Shown piece after piece: positions 51,933-64,000 of a DNA stretch of 64,000 nucleotides. Below the pieces are notes generated by a model that was not told the DNA's origin, searched no databases, and saw only the letters and a program-made list of their open reading frames with translations. A program made the position numbers and the translations under genes. Source of the DNA: Thermoanaerobaculia bacterium (GTDB lineage: Bacteria; Acidobacteriota; Thermoanaerobaculia; UBA5066); the NCBI GenBank assembly GCA_022071945.1, contig JAJVIN010000051.1, positions 20,528 to 84,527 on the forward strand, in the 5' to 3' direction. Numbering within the stretch: position 1 is the stretch's first letter; each line of letters opens with the position of its first letter.

Positions 51933-51984
51933 CCGAACCTCCCGATCCCGTCGCGGCGGTCTTTCATTATCGCGAGATGAGGTC

Positions 51985-52035
51985 TTCCGCGCGCCAACCA
52001 CGGCTGGCGCGCCAATCACGGCTGGCGCGCCGCCG
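51985..52035. repeat. 18-bp tandem repeat in a divergent promoter region
   Basis: GCGCGCCAACCACGGCTG is followed by GCGCGCCAATCACGGCTG and a third partial GCGCGCC. It lies between the divergent winged-helix gene and the kinase-receptor gene, a place for regulator binding. The function is unknown. Confidence 0.55.
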
Positions 52036-52075
52036 CGTTGACCCCGCCTTGTCCCCGGCGCAACATGGCTCCCCG

Positions 52076-55000
52076 ATGAGGCGAGAACTCCGAAAGGCGA
52101 AGAGGATGGCGGCCGCGGGGCTCGCCTTCTTTCTCGCGCCCGCCGTTGTCGCTCCCGAGGCCCGCGCGCTCGATCCGACGCGGGCCCCCACCCAGTACGT
52201 CCAGGACGTTTGGACCCAGAGAGACGGGCTCCCCCAGAACTCCGCCAACGCCATTCTCCAGACCCGGGACGGCTACCTGTGGATCGGAACCGAGGAAGGG
52301 CTCGTTCGCTTCGATGGCGTCCGCTTCACCGTCTTCGACAAGCGGAACACACCCGCCATCCGCAACAACTTCATCATGGCCCTCGCGGAGGACTCCGAGG
52401 GGGCCCTCTGGATCGGGACATTCGGCGGGGGCCTCGTCCGGCTCCGCGACGGCGCCTTCGAGAGCTTCGGGGATGACGTCACCGGCCAGCGGATCCGGAC
52501 CCTGTACCGGGACTCGAAGGGAGCGATCTGGATCTCGACGGGAGGGGGCGGGCTGAGCCGCTATCAGAACGGGACGTTCACGAAGTGGAGGGTCAAGGAC
52601 GGCCTCGGGTCCGACCGTGTCTGGTCGGTCGTGGAGGACGGGAAGGGGGGAATCCTCGTTGGGACCTACGGGGGCGGGCTCCAGCGGTTCGAAAACGGAG
52701 CTTTTTCTCGAATCGAGCTCGGCCCCAGGCCCGAGAGCAGCCTCATCCGGCCCCTCCGGGCCGACCGGGAGGGGAACATCTGGATCGGGACGGACGGCGG
52801 CGGACTTTACCGGCTGAAGGACGGCGTGGTGACCGCTTTCGACAGCACCAACGGGCTGCCCAATCCCTTCATCCGCGACCTCTGGGTGGACCGCGACGGG
52901 AACCTCTGGATCGCAACCGACGGCGCCGGGGTGTTCCGCCACAGCAACGGGACCTTCTCACCGTTCTCGACCCGGCACGGCCTGTCGAACGACTTCACGC
53001 TCTCGCTGTTCGAGGATGAGGAGGCAAGCCTGTGGATCGGGACGTCCGGAGGCGGCCTCTTCAGGCTCCGGGACGGCGCCTTCACGAACATCACGACGCG
53101 GGACGGCCTGGCCAGCGACGTCGTCCGCTCGGTTCTCGAGAGCCGCGACGGCTCTCTCTGGATCGGCACGACGGGGGGCGGCGTGACCCGGATCACGAAT
53201 GGAGAGCCGGTCACCCTTCGCGCCGCGGACGGGCTCGCGAGTGATCTCGTCTTCTCTCTCCACGAAGACGAGAAGGGCCAGATCTGGATCGGAACCGACG
53301 GCGCCGGGGTGAACGTCCTGTCGGGCAAGACGATCAAGAAGCTCACGACCCGGGACGGACTCATCAACGACCGCGTCCGGACGATAACCGGGGACCGGTC
53401 GGGCACCCTCTGGTTCGGGACGACCAATTTCCTTTCCCGGTTCGCGAATGGACGGTTCGAGTCCTTCACCCAGGACGACGGCGTTCCCGGCAGCAGCATC
53501 CGGAGCCTCATCCCGGCCCGCGACGGCGGGATCTGGATCGGCTCGGACGGAGGGGGCATTGCCCATCTGAAGGACGGGGTCTTCACGGTCTGGAAGACGG
53601 CGGACGGACTCTCGAGCAGCCGCGTCTTCTGTCTTTTCGAGGACGAGCGCGGTGTCTTGTGGGCCGGAACGTCCGGCGGCGGGCTGAACCGCATCGCCGG
53701 CCGGAAGGCCGTCCCGATCACGACGAAGGACGGCCTCTACGACGACGTCGTCTTCTCCATCGTCGAGGACGATGCCGGCTGGCTCTGGATGACGTGCAAC
53801 AAGGGGGTCTTCCGAGTCTTGCGGCAGGAGCTCGACGACGTCGCCGCGAAGAAGATCCCGGCCGTGCGCTCTTCTTCCTTCGGAACGGCCGACGGGATGC
53901 GCAGCGCGGAGTGCAACGGCGGCTCCCCCGCTGCCTGGAAAGCGAAGGATGGACGGCTCTACTTTTCGACCATCCTCGGCCTCACGTCGATCGACCCCAA
54001 GAGATTCCGGACGAACGAGCGTCCGCCACCGGTTCGAATCGAAGGCCTCGTCGTCGACAAGGAAAGCCTGCGTCCCGAGAACGGGATGGTCATTCCGCCC
54101 GGCGGGGAGCAGTTCGAGTTCCACTACACCGCCCTGAGCTTCCTCGTGCCCGAACGCGTCCGCTTCCGCTACAAGCTCGAGGGCTTCGACCGGAACTGGA
54201 TAGACGCCGGCACCCGAAGAACCGCCTACTACACGAATCTGCCGCCCGGCGGCTACACGTTCCGGGTGAGGGCCTGCAACAACGACGGTGTCTGGAACGA
54301 GACGGGTGCGACGCTCTCGCTGACCCTGACGCCGTTCTTCTACCAGACCCGATGGTTCCTCTTCACGTGTGTGGCCGCGGCTCTCCTCTCGGCCTTCGGA
54401 GCGTTCCGGCTGAGACTCCAGGGGCTGAAGAGAAGGGAGCGGGACCTGGAACGCCTCGTCTCCGAGAGGACGAGCCAGCTCGAGGAGCGGACGAGCGCTC
54501 TCTCGAGAGCTCAGGAGCAGCTCGAGAAACTGTCGAACACCTCCGCCAGCGTCCTCGAGGACCCGGCCGCGTGGGCCCGGTCGGTCGCCAGGGAGATGGC
54601 GCGGTCGATCGGCGCGAAGGAGATCGGCGTCTGGGTCGTCGAGGGCAACAGCTTCGTCCCCCTCGCCTCCAGCACGTTGAAGACCCCCGACTGGGCCCTC
54701 TTGCAGAAGGCCCAGAAGAGCGACGGCTTTCTTCGGGAGGTCTCGGGTTCCGTCGTTCCCGTTCTCGGCATGACGGGCGAACCCCGCGGGATCCTCGTCG
54801 TCGACGGCCCGGATGTCGTCTGGGGGGACGTGCAGAAGAGGATCGTCTCGAACCTGGCGCGCCACCTCGGGACCGCCCTCGATCTCCGCTCACTCCGGGA
54901 ACGGCTGGCCACGTCCGAAAACCAGCGGGCGGCGAGCCGCCAGCAAATGCACCAGAAGGGCATCCAGCTGGCGGCCTTCTGCCACACCTGTCACCGCGTC

Positions 55001-55966
55001 TTCGAGGATGGCGTCACGCGCTGCGCCGTCGACGGGACTCCCCTCGACTGGTCCCGGCTCTTCCCGCTGGTCCTGGGGGGCCGGTACCGCCTCCTGCGGG
55101 TTCTGGGCGAGGGCGGGATGGGGATGGTCCTGCGCGCCCGCGACGAGCGCCTCCACAGAGAGGTGGCGGTGAAGGTGATCCGCTCCGAGCACCTGCGCGA
55201 CGTCAGCGTCCGGCTCCGGTTCGAGAGAGAGGCGCGTCTCATCGCCCACATCCAGCACCCCGGCGTGGTCGCGGTCTTCGACAGCGGCGAGCTCGAGGAC
55301 GGCTCGGGCTTCCTCGTCATGGAAGACCTCAAGGGACTCAACCTCGCCGACCTCATCAGACATCACGGACCCGGGACGCCCCGGCAGGTCGCCCTCCTGA
55401 TTCGCCAGACGGGGGAGGCTCTCTTCGAGGCGCACCGGGCGGGCGTGGTCCATCGCGACATCAAGCCCCCCAACATCTTCCTCGTCCCGGCTCCCCAGGG
55501 CTTTCAGGCCAAGCTCCTCGACTTTGGAATCGCCAAGTCCTCCGAACCCGACAGCCAGCTCACCCGGACGGGAATGATCGTCGGCACGCCCGCCTACATG
55601 GCTCCCGAACAGGTCACGGGCGAGAACGTCGATGCCCGTTCGGACCTCTACTCGTTCGCCACCGTGGCGTACGAGGCACTCACCGGCAGGGCGATGGTTC
55701 GCGCCATCGACGTCGCCCGCATCTTCTTCGAGGTCCTCCACAACGAGCCGGAACCGCCCTCGGCCCTCGTCGAAGGCCTCGGCCCCGATGTGGACAGGGT
55801 CTTCGCCCTTGCCCTGAAGAAGCGGCCCGACGAGCGTCCCGGCGACGTCCTGACATGGGTCAACCAGGCGGTCAGCGCTCTGGCGGACCTTCCAGCACCT
55901 CCGGGAAACACCGGCTGGCCGGACCCCCTGCCTCTCGCCACCCGGGCCGACGGACCGGCGACCTGA
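52076..55966 (+). CDS. Secreted-sensor Ser/Thr kinase: two-component-type propeller, Y_Y_Y, TM, GAF-like, protein kinase
   Basis: The 1296-residue product has a signal peptide (KRMAAAGLAFFLAPAVV), about a dozen propeller repeats of the two-component-regulator type (LWIGTxGGGLxR; residues about 45-640), a Y_Y_Y-type domain (about 690-755), one membrane helix (about 760-780), a coiled coil and a GAF-like domain (about 785-950), a zinc-ribbon-like CHTCH...CAVDG (about 968-987) and a Ser/Thr kinase with K1033, HRDIKPPN (1126-1133) and DFGIAKS (from 1149), all active-looking. Propeller/Y_Y_Y sensors usually end in a histidine kinase; here the output is a Hanks-type kinase. ATG 52076 and ATG 52106 are both possible starts. 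Confidence 0.9.
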   Translation: MRRELRKAKRMAAAGLAFFLAPAVVAPEARALDPTRAPTQYVQDVWTQRDGLPQNSANAILQTRDGYLWIGTEEGLVRFDGVRFTVFDKRNTPAIRNNFIMALAEDSEGALWIGTFGGGLVRLRDGAFESFGDDVTGQRIRTLYRDSKGAIWISTGGGGLSRYQNGTFTKWRVKDGLGSDRVWSVVEDGKGGILVGTYGGGLQRFENGAFSRIELGPRPESSLIRPLRADREGNIWIGTDGGGLYRLKDGVVTAFDSTNGLPNPFIRDLWVDRDGNLWIATDGAGVFRHSNGTFSPFSTRHGLSNDFTLSLFEDEEASLWIGTSGGGLFRLRDGAFTNITTRDGLASDVVRSVLESRDGSLWIGTTGGGVTRITNGEPVTLRAADGLASDLVFSLHEDEKGQIWIGTDGAGVNVLSGKTIKKLTTRDGLINDRVRTITGDRSGTLWFGTTNFLSRFANGRFESFTQDDGVPGSSIRSLIPARDGGIWIGSDGGGIAHLKDGVFTVWKTADGLSSSRVFCLFEDERGVLWAGTSGGGLNRIAGRKAVPITTKDGLYDDVVFSIVEDDAGWLWMTCNKGVFRVLRQELDDVAAKKIPAVRSSSFGTADGMRSAECNGGSPAAWKAKDGRLYFSTILGLTSIDPKRFRTNERPPPVRIEGLVVDKESLRPENGMVIPPGGEQFEFHYTALSFLVPERVRFRYKLEGFDRNWIDAGTRRTAYYTNLPPGGYTFRVRACNNDGVWNETGATLSLTLTPFFYQTRWFLFTCVAAALLSAFGAFRLRLQGLKRRERDLERLVSERTSQLEERTSALSRAQEQLEKLSNTSASVLEDPAAWARSVAREMARSIGAKEIGVWVVEGNSFVPLASSTLKTPDWALLQKAQKSDGFLREVSGSVVPVLGMTGEPRGILVVDGPDVVWGDVQKRIVSNLARHLGTALDLRSLRERLATSENQRAASRQQMHQKGIQLAAFCHTCHRVFEDGVTRCAVDGTPLDWSRLFPLVLGGRYRLLRVLGEGGMGMVLRARDERLHREVAVKVIRSEHLRDVSVRLRFEREARLIAHIQHPGVVAVFDSGELEDGSGFLVMEDLKGLNLADLIRHHGPGTPRQVALLIRQTGEALFEAHRAGVVHRDIKPPNIFLVPAPQGFQAKLLDFGIAKSSEPDSQLTRTGMIVGTPAYMAPEQVTGENVDARSDLYSFATVAYEALTGRAMVRAIDVARIFFEVLHNEPEPPSALVEGLGPDVDRVFALALKKRPDERPGDVLTWVNQAVSALADLPAPPGNTGWPDPLPLATRADGPAT

Positions 55967-57799: not shown

Positions 57800-58579
57800 G
57801 TGACCCTCATCGAACCGCAGACCGCAGTGACGGCGTTTCGTCCCTCCGCAATCGCTGGGAACCGGTGGCGCGGGAAGGGAGAACCCGCTCTGGTCTCGCT
57901 TCTGGACGAGCATCCAGCGGTCGTCCTGAGAGGAGCGATGCCGGGCGAAGAGGCCGCCGGACTGGCTTCTCGCGTCCTTTCGGCGCGGGCAGATTGGACA
58001 CCCGACTTCGGCGGCGACCAGTTCGCTCTCGGACGGGCCTTCTACACGCACCTCGAAACCGGGAAGTCCAGGGAGTACTTCGCGGGAGCCCGCGCCTCGG
58101 ACGCTCTTCTCGAGAGAGTCCTGCCCGGGCTGCAGGCGCGAACCCTGGACCTGATGGGCCGGCTCCTCGGCGGAGAGGTTCGACAGCGTCCCGGTTTTTG
58201 CGGACCGGGCGTTCACGTCTTCCCGGCGTCCGGCAAGGTCGCTCGGGAGGGAGGCGTCGTCCACTTCGACCTGGAAGGCCTGACCGAGTACCAGAAGGCC
58301 ACGGGAGCGCCGTCGGTTTCTCTCGTCTGGACGCTTCAGCCGGGCGTCTTTGGCGGGGGGCTGCGGCTCTGGGAAGTCCTTTACGAAGGGATCCCCGACT
58401 CCGAGGTCGAGCCGTGCGAGTACCGCCACGCGACGGTACGGTCGGAAGCGGGCGACGCGCTCTTTTTCGACAGCCTTCGCCTCCACCAGATCCGGCCGTT
58501 CCGAGGAGAGCGGGACCGGATCTCGGTCACCGCTCACGCCGTCGCGGTCGACCGGGGAGTCTGGGAAGTCTGGTTCTGA
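57800..58579 (+). CDS. 2-oxoglutarate/Fe(II)-dependent oxygenase-like protein
   Basis: The 259-residue product shows the iron site of this superfamily: H155-F-D157 and H229 (in DSLRLHQIRPF), with R238/R240 as the likely 2-oxoglutarate anchor. The rest of the fold (FGGGLRLWEVL; ALFFDSL) fits. The substrate is unknown. GTG 57800 follows GTGGAGG at 57784-57790. It converges on the minus-strand run that starts at 61444. Confidence 0.75.
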   Translation: MTLIEPQTAVTAFRPSAIAGNRWRGKGEPALVSLLDEHPAVVLRGAMPGEEAAGLASRVLSARADWTPDFGGDQFALGRAFYTHLETGKSREYFAGARASDALLERVLPGLQARTLDLMGRLLGGEVRQRPGFCGPGVHVFPASGKVAREGGVVHFDLEGLTEYQKATGAPSVSLVWTLQPGVFGGGLRLWEVLYEGIPDSEVEPCEYRHATVRSEAGDALFFDSLRLHQIRPFRGERDRISVTAHAVAVDRGVWEVWF

Positions 58580-58607: not shown

Positions 58608-59183
58608 CTACCGGTCCTCGATCATCCGCAGGTACTGGAATTTGCGGTCCGTGAGGTCCTCGGCTGTGAGACCCCAGCTTTCGTCGCCAGGGATGACGTA
58701 GAAGACGTCCGACTTCACCGCGGCGAAGTTCATGACGCCGAGGCCGCTCAGGATCTTCACGAAGGTCTGCTTTTTCCAGAGCAGGTTCTCGGGGACCTCG
58801 CACAGCTTCGCCACGTCCCGGGCACATTGAGAACCGGCGTCCATGAGGAAGGACATCGTGAAAGTCATGAAGCGTGGCTCGCCGTGGCGCCTCGGGGCGC
58901 CCGAGGCCTCCTTGCGCGCCCCCTCGCGGGTGATCATGCCGTTGCACCACATGTCGTAGTCCTTCAGCGCGCGCTCGTTGTCGTCGAAGAAGTCCCAGCA
59001 TCCCCTGACGAATGCATCCTGGTTGGCCACGAGAATCTGGACGGCCGACCTCAACATCTGCCACTTCTTGCCAGGGCTACTGATCGCCGGGTGCTCGGCG
59101 ACGAGGGCTCTCAATTCGGACCAGAGCTCGCTATCGGGCGCCAGTTCCAGACAGAGTTCGAGGGCGAAGATGGCGTGGTTCAC
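58608..59183 (-). CDS. Hypothetical protein of the hydroxylase/ATP-grasp cluster
   Basis: The 191-residue product is soluble and mixed helical, with four cysteines (LELCLEL, RGCWDFFDD, MWCNGMI, QCARDVAKLC). I recognise no family. It is the third gene of a minus-strand run (61444 to 58608), 30 bp after the membrane-anchored protein gene, and probably acts with it. Confidence 0.65.
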   Translation of the reverse strand: MNHAIFALELCLELAPDSELWSELRALVAEHPAISSPGKKWQMLRSAVQILVANQDAFVRGCWDFFDDNERALKDYDMWCNGMITREGARKEASGAPRRHGEPRFMTFTMSFLMDAGSQCARDVAKLCEVPENLLWKKQTFVKILSGLGVMNFAAVKSDVFYVIPGDESWGLTAEDLTDRKFQYLRMIEDR

Positions 59184-59213
59184 GGGACTTCCTCCGCGTT
59201 TCTTCCGAAACGT

Positions 59214-60581
59214 TCAGCCACTCCAGCCTCCCGAGAACCGGTTCTGCGATCCCCTTCGGCCGAGAGCGGCCGCCATCACGAGCCCCGAGCCCCCCACCAT
59301 GACGGCGACGTTCCCGAGGCTCTCGGGGGTCGTGGCGGCCGCCGTGCTCCTCGAAATGAACGAGTACCGGCTGGCATCCGACGCCTTGAATGCCGTCGAC
59401 TGATCCAGGGTCGGAGTGAACGATGAATCATAGGGGTAGGCGATCCAGAAGGTGGCGTCGGTCTCGGCGGAACCCCCGAAGTAGAGGGGCGACGGTCCCG
59501 AGGTCACCGCCGTCGTGCCGAAATCCGTCAGGGCGAGCGCCCTGACGGCCACTGTCTGGGGTTCGGGATAGGCGGGCGCCAGGACGGCGTTGATGTCGTC
59601 GGGCTCCGGGAGCGCCGCGGGTGAGGCAACGACGTAGAGGAGCGCCTGGATCTCGTCCTGGGCCAGCGCCGAGAGCCGGGGGGCCCTCGCGTAGTACCGG
59701 TTGTCGAAGCGGTCCGACTCCTCGGAGTAGGCCGACATCCGTCTGCGGTCCAGGAGGAATAGGGGCCGGGCCGAGCTCCGCAGGTTCTTCTGCTCCGCGA
59801 AGCGGGGCTGATAGTAGGCGAGAGCGGCCAGGGTCTGGTGTGTCGGGACGACCCCGACCGGATGCGGCCAGTTGTCGAACAGGAGGACGGGCTCGAAGAC
59901 CGAGCAGGCTCCCGCGGCGAAGGCGACGCACTCGGGTCCCGGCAGGTCGGCCAGGATGGCGAGGGAGCGGCGCCCCGAGCAGAGACGCGCGAGAGCCTCG
60001 CCCGCCCGATAGGCCTTTTCCATCTCCGGGGTCACGATGGGGAGGATGACCTCCGACAGCGTCTTGAAGGGTGGGAGCGCCGGAGCCGTCGTCCCCGCCG
60101 CTGGCGCCGGAAGCGCGGCGGCGGGCTGGGCCTTCAGGGACATCGGCAGGGTGTTCACGTAGTACTTCGCGTTGTAAGCGGGAAGCATCACGTCGGGTAG
60201 CTGATCGAGATCCGCCCGGACGAAGGGCTTCTCCGAGACTCCGTTGAAGACGAGGGGCTTGCCCCGCGCGCCGAAATCCCAGCCGAACTGCCGCTGCATC
60301 TCGAGGGAGCGGCGTGTGTCGACGGTCTCGCTCGGTCCCGAGAAGATCTTCGAGATCCCGTATCCCGCCATCCCGATCGCGCCGAGAACGCCTCCGGCCG
60401 CGATGAGGCCGACCAGGACGTGGCGGCGTTCGACCGTGCTGTCCTGGGAGGCGAGGGCCTTGTGCCACCAGCGGGCACCGACGATCCCCTCGTCGTTCAG
60501 TTCGACGTCGCGCTCGAACTCCTGTCCCGAGCCGGACCCCGAGCCGGGAGGTTTTGGAGGAGGGGGAACGGGGGTGGTCAA
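59214..60581 (-). CDS. Membrane-anchored protein of unknown function
   Basis: The 455-residue product has a proline/glycine-rich cytoplasmic start, one membrane segment (VLVGLIAAGGVLGAIGMAGYG, about residues 55-75) and a large outer part. Its middle half reads AGEALARLCSGRRSLAILADL and AYYQPRFAEQKNLRS, and a C-terminal hydrophobic stretch (ESLGNVAVMVGGSGLVMAAAL) may be a second anchor. I recognise no domain. TTG 60581 overlaps the stop of the hydroxylase-like gene (TTGA) and has AGGAGG just upstream, which decides this unusual start. Confidence 0.7.
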   Translation of the reverse strand: MTTPVPPPPKPPGSGSGSGQEFERDVELNDEGIVGARWWHKALASQDSTVERRHVLVGLIAAGGVLGAIGMAGYGISKIFSGPSETVDTRRSLEMQRQFGWDFGARGKPLVFNGVSEKPFVRADLDQLPDVMLPAYNAKYYVNTLPMSLKAQPAAALPAPAAGTTAPALPPFKTLSEVILPIVTPEMEKAYRAGEALARLCSGRRSLAILADLPGPECVAFAAGACSVFEPVLLFDNWPHPVGVVPTHQTLAALAYYQPRFAEQKNLRSSARPLFLLDRRRMSAYSEESDRFDNRYYARAPRLSALAQDEIQALLYVVASPAALPEPDDINAVLAPAYPEPQTVAVRALALTDFGTTAVTSGPSPLYFGGSAETDATFWIAYPYDSSFTPTLDQSTAFKASDASRYSFISRSTAAATTPESLGNVAVMVGGSGLVMAAALGRRGSQNRFSGGWSG

Positions 60582-61444
60582 GGCTGCCTCCTGTAGCGCT
60601 CCACGAGCGTCTGACGAAACTCGGGAGTGAAGACTCCGTCCACGCGGATCGAGTAGCGGAAGTAGGGGTCCGCGTGGACTCCGTGGTAGTCGTAGTCGTT
60701 GAACCAGATCACTCGTCCCTCGACGGTGATCTTCTCGCCCGTTTCCGGATCGAGGACATAGAGCCTCTTGCCGGGCACGGGAGAGATGGTCAGGAAGTGG
60801 TCGGGCTCGTCCTGTTCGTGAGGCTCGCCGTCGCGGTGCACCGTGCCGTGGTCGTGGGCCTCGAGCCCCATGATGTTGCAGCGGCCGATGTGGGTGAAGG
60901 GGAGTTTCTTGACGAACGCAATCGTCTTCGGGAGAAAGGTCTGGGCCTGCCGGGTGAACCTCTTGCCCTCGGGGTTGCTCTTGTCCTCCCACCGCAAGTT
61001 GGGGATGAGCTCCGCGTAGACCTTCCAGGGAAAGTAGACGCGGTGACGCATCTTCAGCCAGAGCATCTGGCGCATCGAGAGGGGAACATCGCGCTCTTCT
61101 CCGTACTGCACGCCCTGGCGATCGCCGGGATCGATGGAGTCCGGGTCGTCCGAGAGAGACCGGAAGATCGCGAACTGCGCGGAGTCGAGGCTCCGGATGA
61201 CTTCCTGGTAATCGACCAGCGCCTCGTCCTCCATTCCGGGGGGCATGATGCCCATCGAACGGTGGCTGCCCCCCGTGTAGGCGACGGGCATCCCCGAGAG
61301 AGCGAGGCACACCTCGTCATGGATGGCGTCGAGGGAGGAAAGGTCGAAAAGATCGTCGAGGGTGACGAAGGGCCTTCCGAAGACGCCACGAATGGCTCCC
61401 GCTACTCCTCGAACTTTCGCGTCCGGGACCGTGACGGCGTTCAT
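60578..61444 (-). CDS. HxD...H hydroxylase-like protein, paralogue 1
   Basis: The 288-residue product shows an iron-type site H203-R-D205 (in DHGTVHRDGEP) and H254 (in DYDYHGVHADP), with R267 close after it, a layout like Asp/Asn hydroxylases and other 2-oxoglutarate oxygenases. It is clearly paralogous to the gene at 63680-64000: FNDYDYHGV versus FNDMDYHGV, and FRYSIRVDGVF versus FRYSIRIDGVF. The family name is not certain. It is the first gene of the minus-strand run and is divergent, by 54 bp, from the DUF350 gene. Confidence 0.7.
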   Translation of the reverse strand: MNAVTVPDAKVRGVAGAIRGVFGRPFVTLDDLFDLSSLDAIHDEVCLALSGMPVAYTGGSHRSMGIMPPGMEDEALVDYQEVIRSLDSAQFAIFRSLSDDPDSIDPGDRQGVQYGEERDVPLSMRQMLWLKMRHRVYFPWKVYAELIPNLRWEDKSNPEGKRFTRQAQTFLPKTIAFVKKLPFTHIGRCNIMGLEAHDHGTVHRDGEPHEQDEPDHFLTISPVPGKRLYVLDPETGEKITVEGRVIWFNDYDYHGVHADPYFRYSIRVDGVFTPEFRQTLVERYRRQP

Positions 61445-61498
61445 CTGAGGCGCAGAGGATAGCAGTCTCCCTGAAACGCTCGGATAGAATCCGGCGCC

Positions 61499-62356
61499 GT
61501 GCAATCCGAAACACTGATCCGCGCGGGGTTCGCGACGGGTACGACCGTCGGCCTTCTCGTCATGTTCCACGGTCTTCAGAAGATCGTGTCGCCGCAGCAC
61601 ACCCTGATCGGGGACATGCGCGGCAAGAATCCGGCCTACCAGTTCGTTCAGGTCGGGCACGCCCTCGCGGTGCTCCTCTTGATCCCCGGAGTGGTCCGCG
61701 AGGCCCTCGGGGAGCCGACGCTGGGGATAGGCGCGATCTGGGCCGCCGTCTTCTCGCTCGCGGGCGTCGTCCTCATCCAGATCGTCGGCTCCCTGGGGAT
61801 CCGGCTTCTCCTGCGCTCGACTCTGACGGCCGAACTCGACAGCGGCAACGCCGCCGCTGGAATCGCCGGGGGCGTCAACTACGTCGCCATCGGCATCCTC
61901 GCCTCCCGCGCCGTCGCCGGCAGCGACTTGAGGGGACTGGGTCTGGCCGTCGTCTTCTTCTGTCTCGCCGTCGTCACGCACGCGGTCTTCGTCGCCCTGT
62001 TCCGCGCCCTGACCGCCTACGACGACTCCGAGCAAATCCAGGGCGAGAACCTGGCCGCCGCGCTCAGCTATGCGGGCGTCACCGTCGCCGTGGCCCTCAT
62101 CCTCGCCCGGGCCCTGGAGGGCGACTTCACGGGCTGGGCGAGCTCCCTCACCGGATTCGGCTGGGTGGCCGCCGCCGTGCTCGCCCTCTATCCGGTCCGG
62201 CAGATCATCGTTCAGGGCCTCATCCTCGGCCGCGCCCCGACTCTTCGGGGCGGCGCCCTCGACGACTCGATCGGCGCCGAGCGAAATTCAGGGATGGCCG
62301 CGATGGAAGCTCTCACCTACCTGGCCGCCGCGTTCGTCATCGTGAGCCTGGTGTGA
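61499..62356 (+). CDS. DUF350-type membrane protein
   Basis: The 285-residue product is a polytopic membrane protein with about eight helices in two similar halves (GFATGTTVGLLVMFHGL; TAELDSGNAAAGIAGGVNY; LSYAGVTVAVALILARAL). DUF350 (YjfL-like) proteins are regularly found beside glutathionylspermidine-synthase-like ATP-grasp genes, as here. Their role is unclear; a transporter or membrane partner is inferred. The stop overlaps the start of the ATP-grasp gene by four bases. Confidence 0.8.
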   Translation: MQSETLIRAGFATGTTVGLLVMFHGLQKIVSPQHTLIGDMRGKNPAYQFVQVGHALAVLLLIPGVVREALGEPTLGIGAIWAAVFSLAGVVLIQIVGSLGIRLLLRSTLTAELDSGNAAAGIAGGVNYVAIGILASRAVAGSDLRGLGLAVVFFCLAVVTHAVFVALFRALTAYDDSEQIQGENLAAALSYAGVTVAVALILARALEGDFTGWASSLTGFGWVAAAVLALYPVRQIIVQGLILGRAPTLRGGALDDSIGAERNSGMAAMEALTYLAAAFVIVSLV

Positions 62357-63732
62357 CCGTCCTTCCCGCCCCGGCCGGCACCCAGACCTACGACGAGTTC
62401 GCGCGGCGCGTCGTCGAATCCGGCATCCTCCTCGACCCCTGGCTGGACGGCGAGCCGCGCCTGTCCATGACACCCCTCGTCCTCGGCCCCCACCGTTATC
62501 GCGATCTGGCGAGGGCCGGAGAGGACGTCGCCGAGCTCTACAACGAGGCCTGCCTTCTCGTCGAGGACGACGACGAGCTTCTCGAGAGTTTCTTCGGGCT
62601 GTCACCCGTCCAGCAGCTGATGTGGAACGTGTCGCGGCCCCTCTGGCACGGTCTGGCGCGCGCCGACGTCTTCGAAACCCACGAGGGTTACGTCATCAGC
62701 GAGCTGAACTGCGACACCCCCACGGGCGAGGCCGAGGCCGTCGTCTTGGGCGAACTCTCGGCCCGGGACCATCCGGAGCTCGTCGACCCGAACCGGAACC
62801 TCGAACCCCGGTTCGGCGCCATGGTCGAGATCCTCATGGACCGGCTCCTCGACCGCCCGTTCAAGAAGGTGATCGGCATCGTCTACCCGACGGAGTTCAC
62901 CGAGGACCTGTCGGTGATCCGCCTCTATCGGAAGTGGCTGGAGAAGGCCGGATTCGAGGTCGTCCTCGGCTCGCCCTACAACCTCGGAGCCGACGGCGAG
63001 GGGAGGGCGACGCTCTTCGGCCGGCCCATCTTCGCCATGCTCCGGCACTACAAGACGGACGGGTGGGGCGAGCGCGTCAGCGCCTGGGACGACGAGACGC
63101 TCCCCGACTCGCTCCCGCTCGGCGCTCCCCTCTCCGTCGCCCTGAAGGCGAGCGTGGAGAGAAAGACGGCCGTCATCAACCCGTTCGGCGCGGTCGTCCC
63201 GCAGAACAAGCGAATCATGGCCTTCATGTGGGAGCACATCCACCGCTTCTCCACTCGCGCCCGCGCCCTGATCGAGAAGTACGTCCCCTACACGTCGCGC
63301 CTCGAGACGATCCATCAGGAGAGAGTCCTGGCCGACCGGGAAGGATGGGTTCTGAAGAGCGACTACGGCGCCGAGGGCGAAGAGGTCATCATCGGGCGTC
63401 TCACCGACGAGAAGACCTGGGCGGAGTCCGTCAAGCACGCGCGTCCCGGGCGGTGGGTCGCCCAGCGCTACTTCGAGGCCCTTGGCGAGGGGATGGAAGA
63501 CGGAGCGGGGCAGGGCAAGGAACAAGCCGAAGCGGCAGTCGCCGTGAGCCCCTCTCCCGTTTCTGGCGTCCAGCCCCTCAACTACGGCGTCTTTCTCGTG
63601 GGCGGCCAGGCCAGCGGCCTGTACGTCAGACGGCAGGCCGGCGCCACCGACGACCACGCCGTCAGCGTGCCCGTCCTCGTCAGGCCCCCCGCGCCGCCCG
63701 CGCGCGAAGAGACTCCACGAACCCCGGCCTGA
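62353..63732 (+). CDS. Glutathionylspermidine-synthase-like ATP-grasp amide ligase
   Basis: The 459-residue product has the pre-ATP-grasp/ATP-grasp layout of this family: YVISELNCDTPTGEAEAVV, IGIVYPTEFTEDLSVI, VLKSDYGAEGEEVIIG, RWVAQRYFEA and NYGVFLVGGQASGLYVR. Such ligases join an amine to a carboxylate with ATP; whether glutathione and spermidine are the substrates is unlikely to be read from sequence. A short low-complexity insert (about residues 383-405) is unusual. The last 53 bases overlap the convergent hydroxylase-like gene. Confidence 0.85.
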   Translation: MTVLPAPAGTQTYDEFARRVVESGILLDPWLDGEPRLSMTPLVLGPHRYRDLARAGEDVAELYNEACLLVEDDDELLESFFGLSPVQQLMWNVSRPLWHGLARADVFETHEGYVISELNCDTPTGEAEAVVLGELSARDHPELVDPNRNLEPRFGAMVEILMDRLLDRPFKKVIGIVYPTEFTEDLSVIRLYRKWLEKAGFEVVLGSPYNLGADGEGRATLFGRPIFAMLRHYKTDGWGERVSAWDDETLPDSLPLGAPLSVALKASVERKTAVINPFGAVVPQNKRIMAFMWEHIHRFSTRARALIEKYVPYTSRLETIHQERVLADREGWVLKSDYGAEGEEVIIGRLTDEKTWAESVKHARPGRWVAQRYFEALGEGMEDGAGQGKEQAEAAVAVSPSPVSGVQPLNYGVFLVGGQASGLYVRRQAGATDDHAVSVPVLVRPPAPPAREETPRTPA

Positions 63733-64000
63733 AGACGCCGTCGATCCGGATGGAGTAGCGGAAGAACGGGTCGTCCAGGACGCCGTGGTAGTCCATGTCG
63801 TTGAACCAGTAGGCGCGCGCCTCAACGACGAGGGGCTCGTCCTCCGGATGGTTCTGGAGGTAGAAGCGCTTGTCGCCGCGGGGGCAGAGGGTGATCTCCT
63901 GCGGGACGCCGAGCGCGACCCCGGGCTCGGTGTCGCGGTGCAGCGGCGCGTGGTCGTTCGGCTCGATCCCGAAGATCACCGCCCGGCCGATTTCCGCGAA
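63680..64000 (-). CDS. HxD...H hydroxylase-like protein, paralogue 2 (partial, cut by window end)
   Basis: The C-terminal ~106 residues are visible and the frame stays open to the edge. They repeat the paralogue at 60578-61444: IGRAVIFGIEPNDHAPLHRD (with H-R-D), FNDMDYHGV, FRYSIRIDGVF. The gene overlaps the 3' end of the convergent ATP-grasp gene by 53 bp. The start is outside the window. Confidence 0.75.
   Translation of the reverse strand, partial: FAEIGRAVIFGIEPNDHAPLHRDTEPGVALGVPQEITLCPRGDKRFYLQNHPEDEPLVVEARAYWFNDMDYHGVLDDPFFRYSIRIDGVFRPGFVESLRARAARGA

Follow-up and report, generated by a model that had tools for sequence, protein, structure and literature searches.

At the downstream end of a 64,000-nucleotide stretch of the Thermoanaerobaculia bacterium contig JAJVIN010000051.1 (the window), we found a set of eight genes, A to H, which lies at 57.8–64 kb and continues for 1.7 kb past the window end. 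The set is real and conserved, and we found no name for it. It combines a GSP_synth-type ATP-grasp ligase (F) and a DUF350 membrane protein (E) with four oxygenase-like genes (A, D, G and H), an orphan protein (B) and a membrane-anchored orphan (C) that ends in a Gly/Ser/Arg-rich tail. Judged from sequence, it is an extension of the known ligase–DUF350 module, a variant with oxygenases. The reading we favour, which in our estimate could equally be right or wrong, is that F joins a polyamine to the tail of C, that the targets oxidised by A, D, G and H are this tail or the amine, and that E and B assist at the membrane.

Conservation of the set was examined with a profile of D and its paralogue G, searched against a collection of 84,980 genomes. 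This retrieved 52 loci in which the other genes of the set recur, and chance is therefore excluded as its origin. The loci are named as myxobacteria or, for several metagenome-assembled genomes, only as 'delta proteobacterium', 'Deltaproteobacteria' or 'Proteobacteria'. The set appears to be mostly myxobacterial, and mobile. The complete A–H set was present in eight loci sampled (Myxococcota). Among 28 loci with D, C was found at 26, B and E at 24 each, F at 23, G at 18, A at 15 and H at 13, all of which are lower bounds because many contigs are short. C is missing from one of the two remaining loci where the contig ends right after D (L013), and the other (L027) is a true exception. The first-pass annotation had envisaged that the genes might prove unlinked in relatives; they stay linked.

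A 4-base overlap of D and C is kept in 13 loci. In each of 15 genomes counted, the D/G genes number exactly two, including those in which the set is split and its parts lie megabases apart, as in Minicystis rosea, whose two D/G copies are separated by 8.7 Mb. D and G proteins fall into two main clades of a tree, and each genome contributes about one to either clade; the exception is the D of one locus (L028), which sits at the base of the G side. We found no further recurring partner beyond A–H; the other repeated neighbours that we looked at encode a Ser/Thr kinase, an ABC ATPase and a sensor kinase. A second locus of Sorangium So ce26 (L093) holds a minimal B-C-F arrangement without oxygenases, the full set being elsewhere in that genome.

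The ligase and its DUF350 partner, both proposed in the first-pass annotation, were confirmed above cut-off: F matches PF03738 (GSP_synth) with 46.1 bits against 29.3 (E 5e-12), and E matches PF03994 (DUF350) twice, with 95.1 bits against 26 (E 5e-27). We aligned F with E. coli GspS, YgiC and YjfC and with ligases of plasmids and phages. GspS residues R316, D318, E330, N332, E392, K498, K533, Q568 and R598, which we take to be the oxyanion, magnesium, spermidine and ATP residues, are conserved in F and in the other aligned ligases. A profile including F and YgiC/YjfC matches the solved structures of YgiC and YjfC as well as GspS. By these comparisons F is related to the peptide–polyamine ligases of GspS/YgiC/YjfC type, with the residues intact. 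RefSeq names both YgiC and YjfC 'peptide--spermidine ligase', an activity that a passage of PMC12568646 credits to Pederick et al. 2023. The invariant synthetase-domain residues are common to F and the bifunctional GspSA, but F aligns with the synthetase part alone, lacks the amidase domain and adjoins a putative protein substrate. No export signal was noticed in F, which is taken as cytosolic.

That candidate substrate is C. Its architecture is a short N-terminal segment with a conserved GARWW start, an RR pair and a hydrophobic anchor, followed by an alpha/beta core and the tail; the RR ahead of the anchor would allow a twin-arginine translocation (Tat)-like route. The tail is conserved and typically reads RSGSWNRxSGGxGG, with R442, G444 and R448 invariant in 26 C orthologues; its Arg positions do not vary, and Asn and Trp are frequent. 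Similar ends are found in the E. coli proteins YgiB (RGGFGES...RSMGG) and YjfM (RGGYGRSSSARGHWGG), and no search made revealed a relationship of either to C. Assignment of C to DUF1190 (PF06693) was rejected, as neither the window C nor any of the 26 C proteins matches, and DUF1190 was not found in genome G000. The window C has no Pfam relative, and B has none in Pfam, NCBIfam, PHROG or PDB. Profile searches of the PDB with B, C, D/G and A gave chance matches only, and comparison of a model of C with PDB folds gave nothing convincing (best Z 4.1), an absence that carries no meaning. A second membrane helix ahead of the tail, considered from hydropathy, is unsupported, as the model has strands at that stretch.

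Tails of this kind recur beside ligases well beyond the set itself. A search in the class of Sorangium uncovered a second, very divergent C-like clade; in all 20 divergent-clade or extra loci an F-like ligase adjoins, and the C-like proteins mostly end in RGGFG...GG. Of YjfC-like loci in plasmids and phages, 15/16 have a Gly/Ser/Arg-tailed neighbour. Many of these neighbours are small and lipoprotein-like or secreted, and their bodies differ: DUF1190 in Proteobacteria, other proteins in Arthrobacter, Leptolyngbya, Virgibacillus and five phages. Tail proteins adjoin ligases in Rhizobium and Vibrio too. As separate observations, the divergent C-like proteins of Polyangia (L094-L112) stand next to F-like ligases at loci that lack both B and the oxygenases, and so represent the module in simpler form; in phages of several kinds (L123, L124, L125, L126, L128, L145-L148) a GSP_synth ligase adjoins a tailed, often lipoprotein-like gene; and in phage Motura a gene for homospermidine synthase lies close by as well.

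For a statistical comparison we wrote a tail rule after viewing the tails and then kept it fixed for ten held-out loci. In the first set, 15/67 genes within two genes of a ligase satisfied it versus 1/68 farther away (p=1e-4), the lone far match being a tail protein of phage phiAS4, four genes from the ligase; the background among myxobacterial open reading frames (ORFs) was 2/457. At the held-out loci, a tail lay within 1.5 kb of the ligase in 7/10, or 7/70 near ORFs versus 1/125 far ones (p=0.004), although these loci are not fully independent, since some have kin in the first set (DUF1190, T4-like phages). One more held-out locus has an obvious tail that narrowly fails the rule, which is strict: YgiB fails it, as do 6/26 C proteins. 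The pairing of tail and ligase is thus supported statistically, as a pattern among sequences. A search of open-licence papers did not find the tail rule in the literature.

The first-pass annotation had combined an amide-forming ligase with two oxygenases and membrane proteins. That combination holds, with two changes: the oxygenase-like genes are four, because A on the plus strand and H past the window edge had been overlooked, and C is better read as the likely substrate of the ligase than as a mere partner. In D/G, H202, D204, H253 and R266 are invariant across 53 proteins, and in A, H156xD158, H230 and R241 are invariant in 17 orthologues; HxD...H...R is the usual signature of 2-oxoglutarate (2OG)/Fe(II) enzymes. 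The earlier 'hydroxylase' label for D and G has this pattern in its favour and found no profile or fold confirmation: only 3/53 members match Asp_Arg_Hydrox (PF05118), the best with E 0.008, below cut-off, and a profile comparison with five members was not significant. We therefore call D and G oxygenase-like, putative 2OG-Fe(II) oxygenases. Matches of A to PF13640/PF13759 are likewise below cut-off (E about 8e-4 to 9e-4). H carries the conserved motifs CxHR, CPYHGW and NFQESHHF..VHP, that is, the cluster CxH...CxxH and the mononuclear-iron motif, and has 40 PDB relatives. It is nearest to carnitine and glycine-betaine monooxygenases (CntA, GbcA), Rieske enzymes acting on amines, yet with 120.6 bits it is far below their curated cut-off of 670; by analogy this kinship fits, and does not show, a polyamine as substrate. 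Since all four oxygenases are absent near the divergent C–ligase genes, they seem to have been added to a ligase–tail module that was simpler.

In the mechanism we favour, F would use ATP to activate the C-terminal carboxylate of the Gly/Ser/Arg-rich tail and would form an amide bond between it and an amine, for which spermidine or a related polyamine is the most likely candidate. The acceptor would be the tail of the membrane-anchored C from the same set; E, with its DUF350 units, and B may help at the membrane, and A, D, G and H may oxidise the polyamine or residues of the tail, either ahead of ligation or once it is complete. The outcome would be an envelope protein whose end bears a modified cationic cap. 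Here we infer the tail as acceptor, spermidine as amine, the order of the steps and the substrates of the oxygenases. Several points weigh against this reading. No tail modification has been observed directly, no chemical tie joins the oxygenases to the tail, and the D/G assignment is from a motif, the fold being unconfirmed. A single N-terminal anchor would place the tail of C outside, whereas F is taken as cytosolic; either C would be modified ahead of its export, or the assumed topology is mistaken. On some contigs that carry E, F, G (and H), C is missing, and some tails end in Ser, not Gly (L015, L016, L021, L117, L121, L122). In favour of the reading, Spermine_synth-type genes are present in 6/6 genomes tested, through matches that are broad and no proof of spermidine synthesis. 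A wider version is more tentative, and we lean slightly against it: a widespread and unrecognised protein-tagging system, in which bacterial and phage GSP_synth ligases would use polyamines to cap envelope proteins at tails of RGGFG...GG type, while four dedicated oxygenases of the myxobacterial branch would hydroxylate or otherwise oxidise tail or polyamine.

The long-characterised relatives of F point to a different chemistry. GspS and trypanothione synthetase act on soluble thiol peptides, glutathione in the case of GspS, and F might similarly use a soluble peptide, or an amino acid, as the partner for a polyamine, with the oxygenases tailoring the product and C, E and B exporting or sensing it. 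Four oxygenases do resemble a natural-product pathway, and the closest kin of H are Rieske enzymes for small quaternary amines. We nevertheless give such a small-molecule pathway only a minority chance: the recurring genes of the set include no carrier, non-ribosomal peptide synthetase, transporter or precursor, F lacks the amidase domain of GspS, and the common C-terminal tail of unrelated ligase neighbours would be left unexplained. That shared tail could itself be structural or targeting in role, through disorder, polyanion binding or docking of a ligase that modifies another molecule. Gly/Ser/Arg-rich ends are of low complexity and could arise repeatedly, and the Ser-ending tails would be less of a difficulty; but the position at the extreme C terminus of unrelated proteins, the recurrent RGGFG-like motif and the enrichment near the ligase make this explanation unlikely.

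It is also conceivable, if quite improbable, that the oxygenases form a separate pathway which merely shares a neighbourhood with the ligase module. D-C-B(-A) and H-G(-F-E) lie on different contigs or megabases apart in several genomes, and no oxygenase genes lie close to the divergent C-F pairs. However, D overlaps C by four bases in 13 loci, D and G are always both present, and the two halves of the set interlock, because in split sets D stays with C and G often with F.

Among known systems, the set has its nearest parallel in the E. coli loci yjfIJKLMC and ygiBC, where a GSP_synth ligase likewise stands beside a tailed DUF1190 protein (YjfM, YgiB), in yjf also with a DUF350 protein (YjfL). 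Unlike these loci, the set has no recurring PspA, YjfI (DUF2170) or YjfK (DUF2491), C is not a DUF1190 protein, and B and four oxygenase-like genes are extra. In the excerpts of Ravi et al. 2024 (PMC11237479) used here, PSP-associated ATP-grasp/DUF350/DUF1190 operons are described with CesT/Tir-PspA partners and in DUF4247/DUF2617 variants. The pairing of ligase and DUF350 is common to those operons and the set, there with a DUF1190 lipoprotein, and the same excerpts make no mention of oxygenases, C or the tail rule.

The layout of the locus is given in the table below. The minus-strand run of D, C and B described in the first-pass annotation proved to consist of real ORFs, and the D paralogue it placed at the window edge is G, which runs past that edge; completed from the genome sequence, G occupies L003:7208-8050. 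The D stop (TGA) overlaps the TTG start of C, and E and F overlap by 4 bp.

Table. Genes and features of the A–H set; positions are those of the window unless prefixed L003
Feature	Position	Strand	Basis or remarks
Gene A, 2OG-Fe(II)-oxygenase-like	57800..58579 (start uncertain)	+	weak PF13640/PF13759 matches, HxD...H...R motif
Gene B, orphan, 191 amino acids	58608..59183	-	no family match; neighbour of C
Gene C, membrane-anchored orphan	59214..60581	-	N-terminal anchor, alpha/beta core, Gly/Ser/Arg tail
C-terminal tail of C, GRRGSQNRFSGGWSG, proposed ligase acceptor	59217..59261	-	invariant residues; similar tails near ligases
Gene D, oxygenase-like	60578..61444	-	HxD...H...R pattern
Gene E, membrane protein with two DUF350 units	61499..62356	+	PF03994 above cut-off
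Gene F, GSP_synth-type ATP-grasp ligase	62353..63732	+	PF03738 above cut-off
Gene G (part), D paralogue	63680..64000, then to L003:8050	-	43% identity to D
Gene H, Rieske oxygenase	L003:8064-9203, past window end, after G		GbcA/carnitine-monooxygenase-like

Downstream of the set lie a pfkB gene and then a TetR-TolC-AcrA-AcrB operon, both named from sequence. pfkB was dropped as a possible ninth member, being found in 0 of the D or G loci. The TetR-TolC-AcrA-AcrB-like efflux operon (L003:10269-16219) is kept in same-family genomes without the cluster; in the relatives G003 and G005 it is conserved and the cluster is not upstream of it. Elsewhere in the window, 51977-55966 encodes a very long protein, seemingly a beta-propeller sensor joined to a Ser/Thr kinase; in G003 a homologue of this protein is encoded near the same efflux operon.

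The set was most likely acquired horizontally from a myxobacterium, because the host belongs to a different phylum in which D is absent, and the window D and G both nest within the myxobacterial trees. D was absent from 99 close relatives of the host, and the D/G family from 296 other genomes of its phylum. Contamination or mis-binning was ruled out by this count (0/296) together with a neighbour on the contig that carries the set: the AcrB encoded downstream is 81-84% identical to those of same-family genomes.

In the open-licence literature, it is an open question what the E. coli peptide–spermidine ligases act on naturally and which roles DUF350 and DUF1190 have. The tail offers a concrete candidate for the substrate at sequence level, one that several protein families and phages show independently, and the idea is easy to test because unrelated ligase neighbours in other bacteria and phages carry a similar tail. 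If true, proteins of bacterial envelopes would be modified at the C terminus in a way that is new in kind, and in the myxobacterial set an oxidative layer would come on top.

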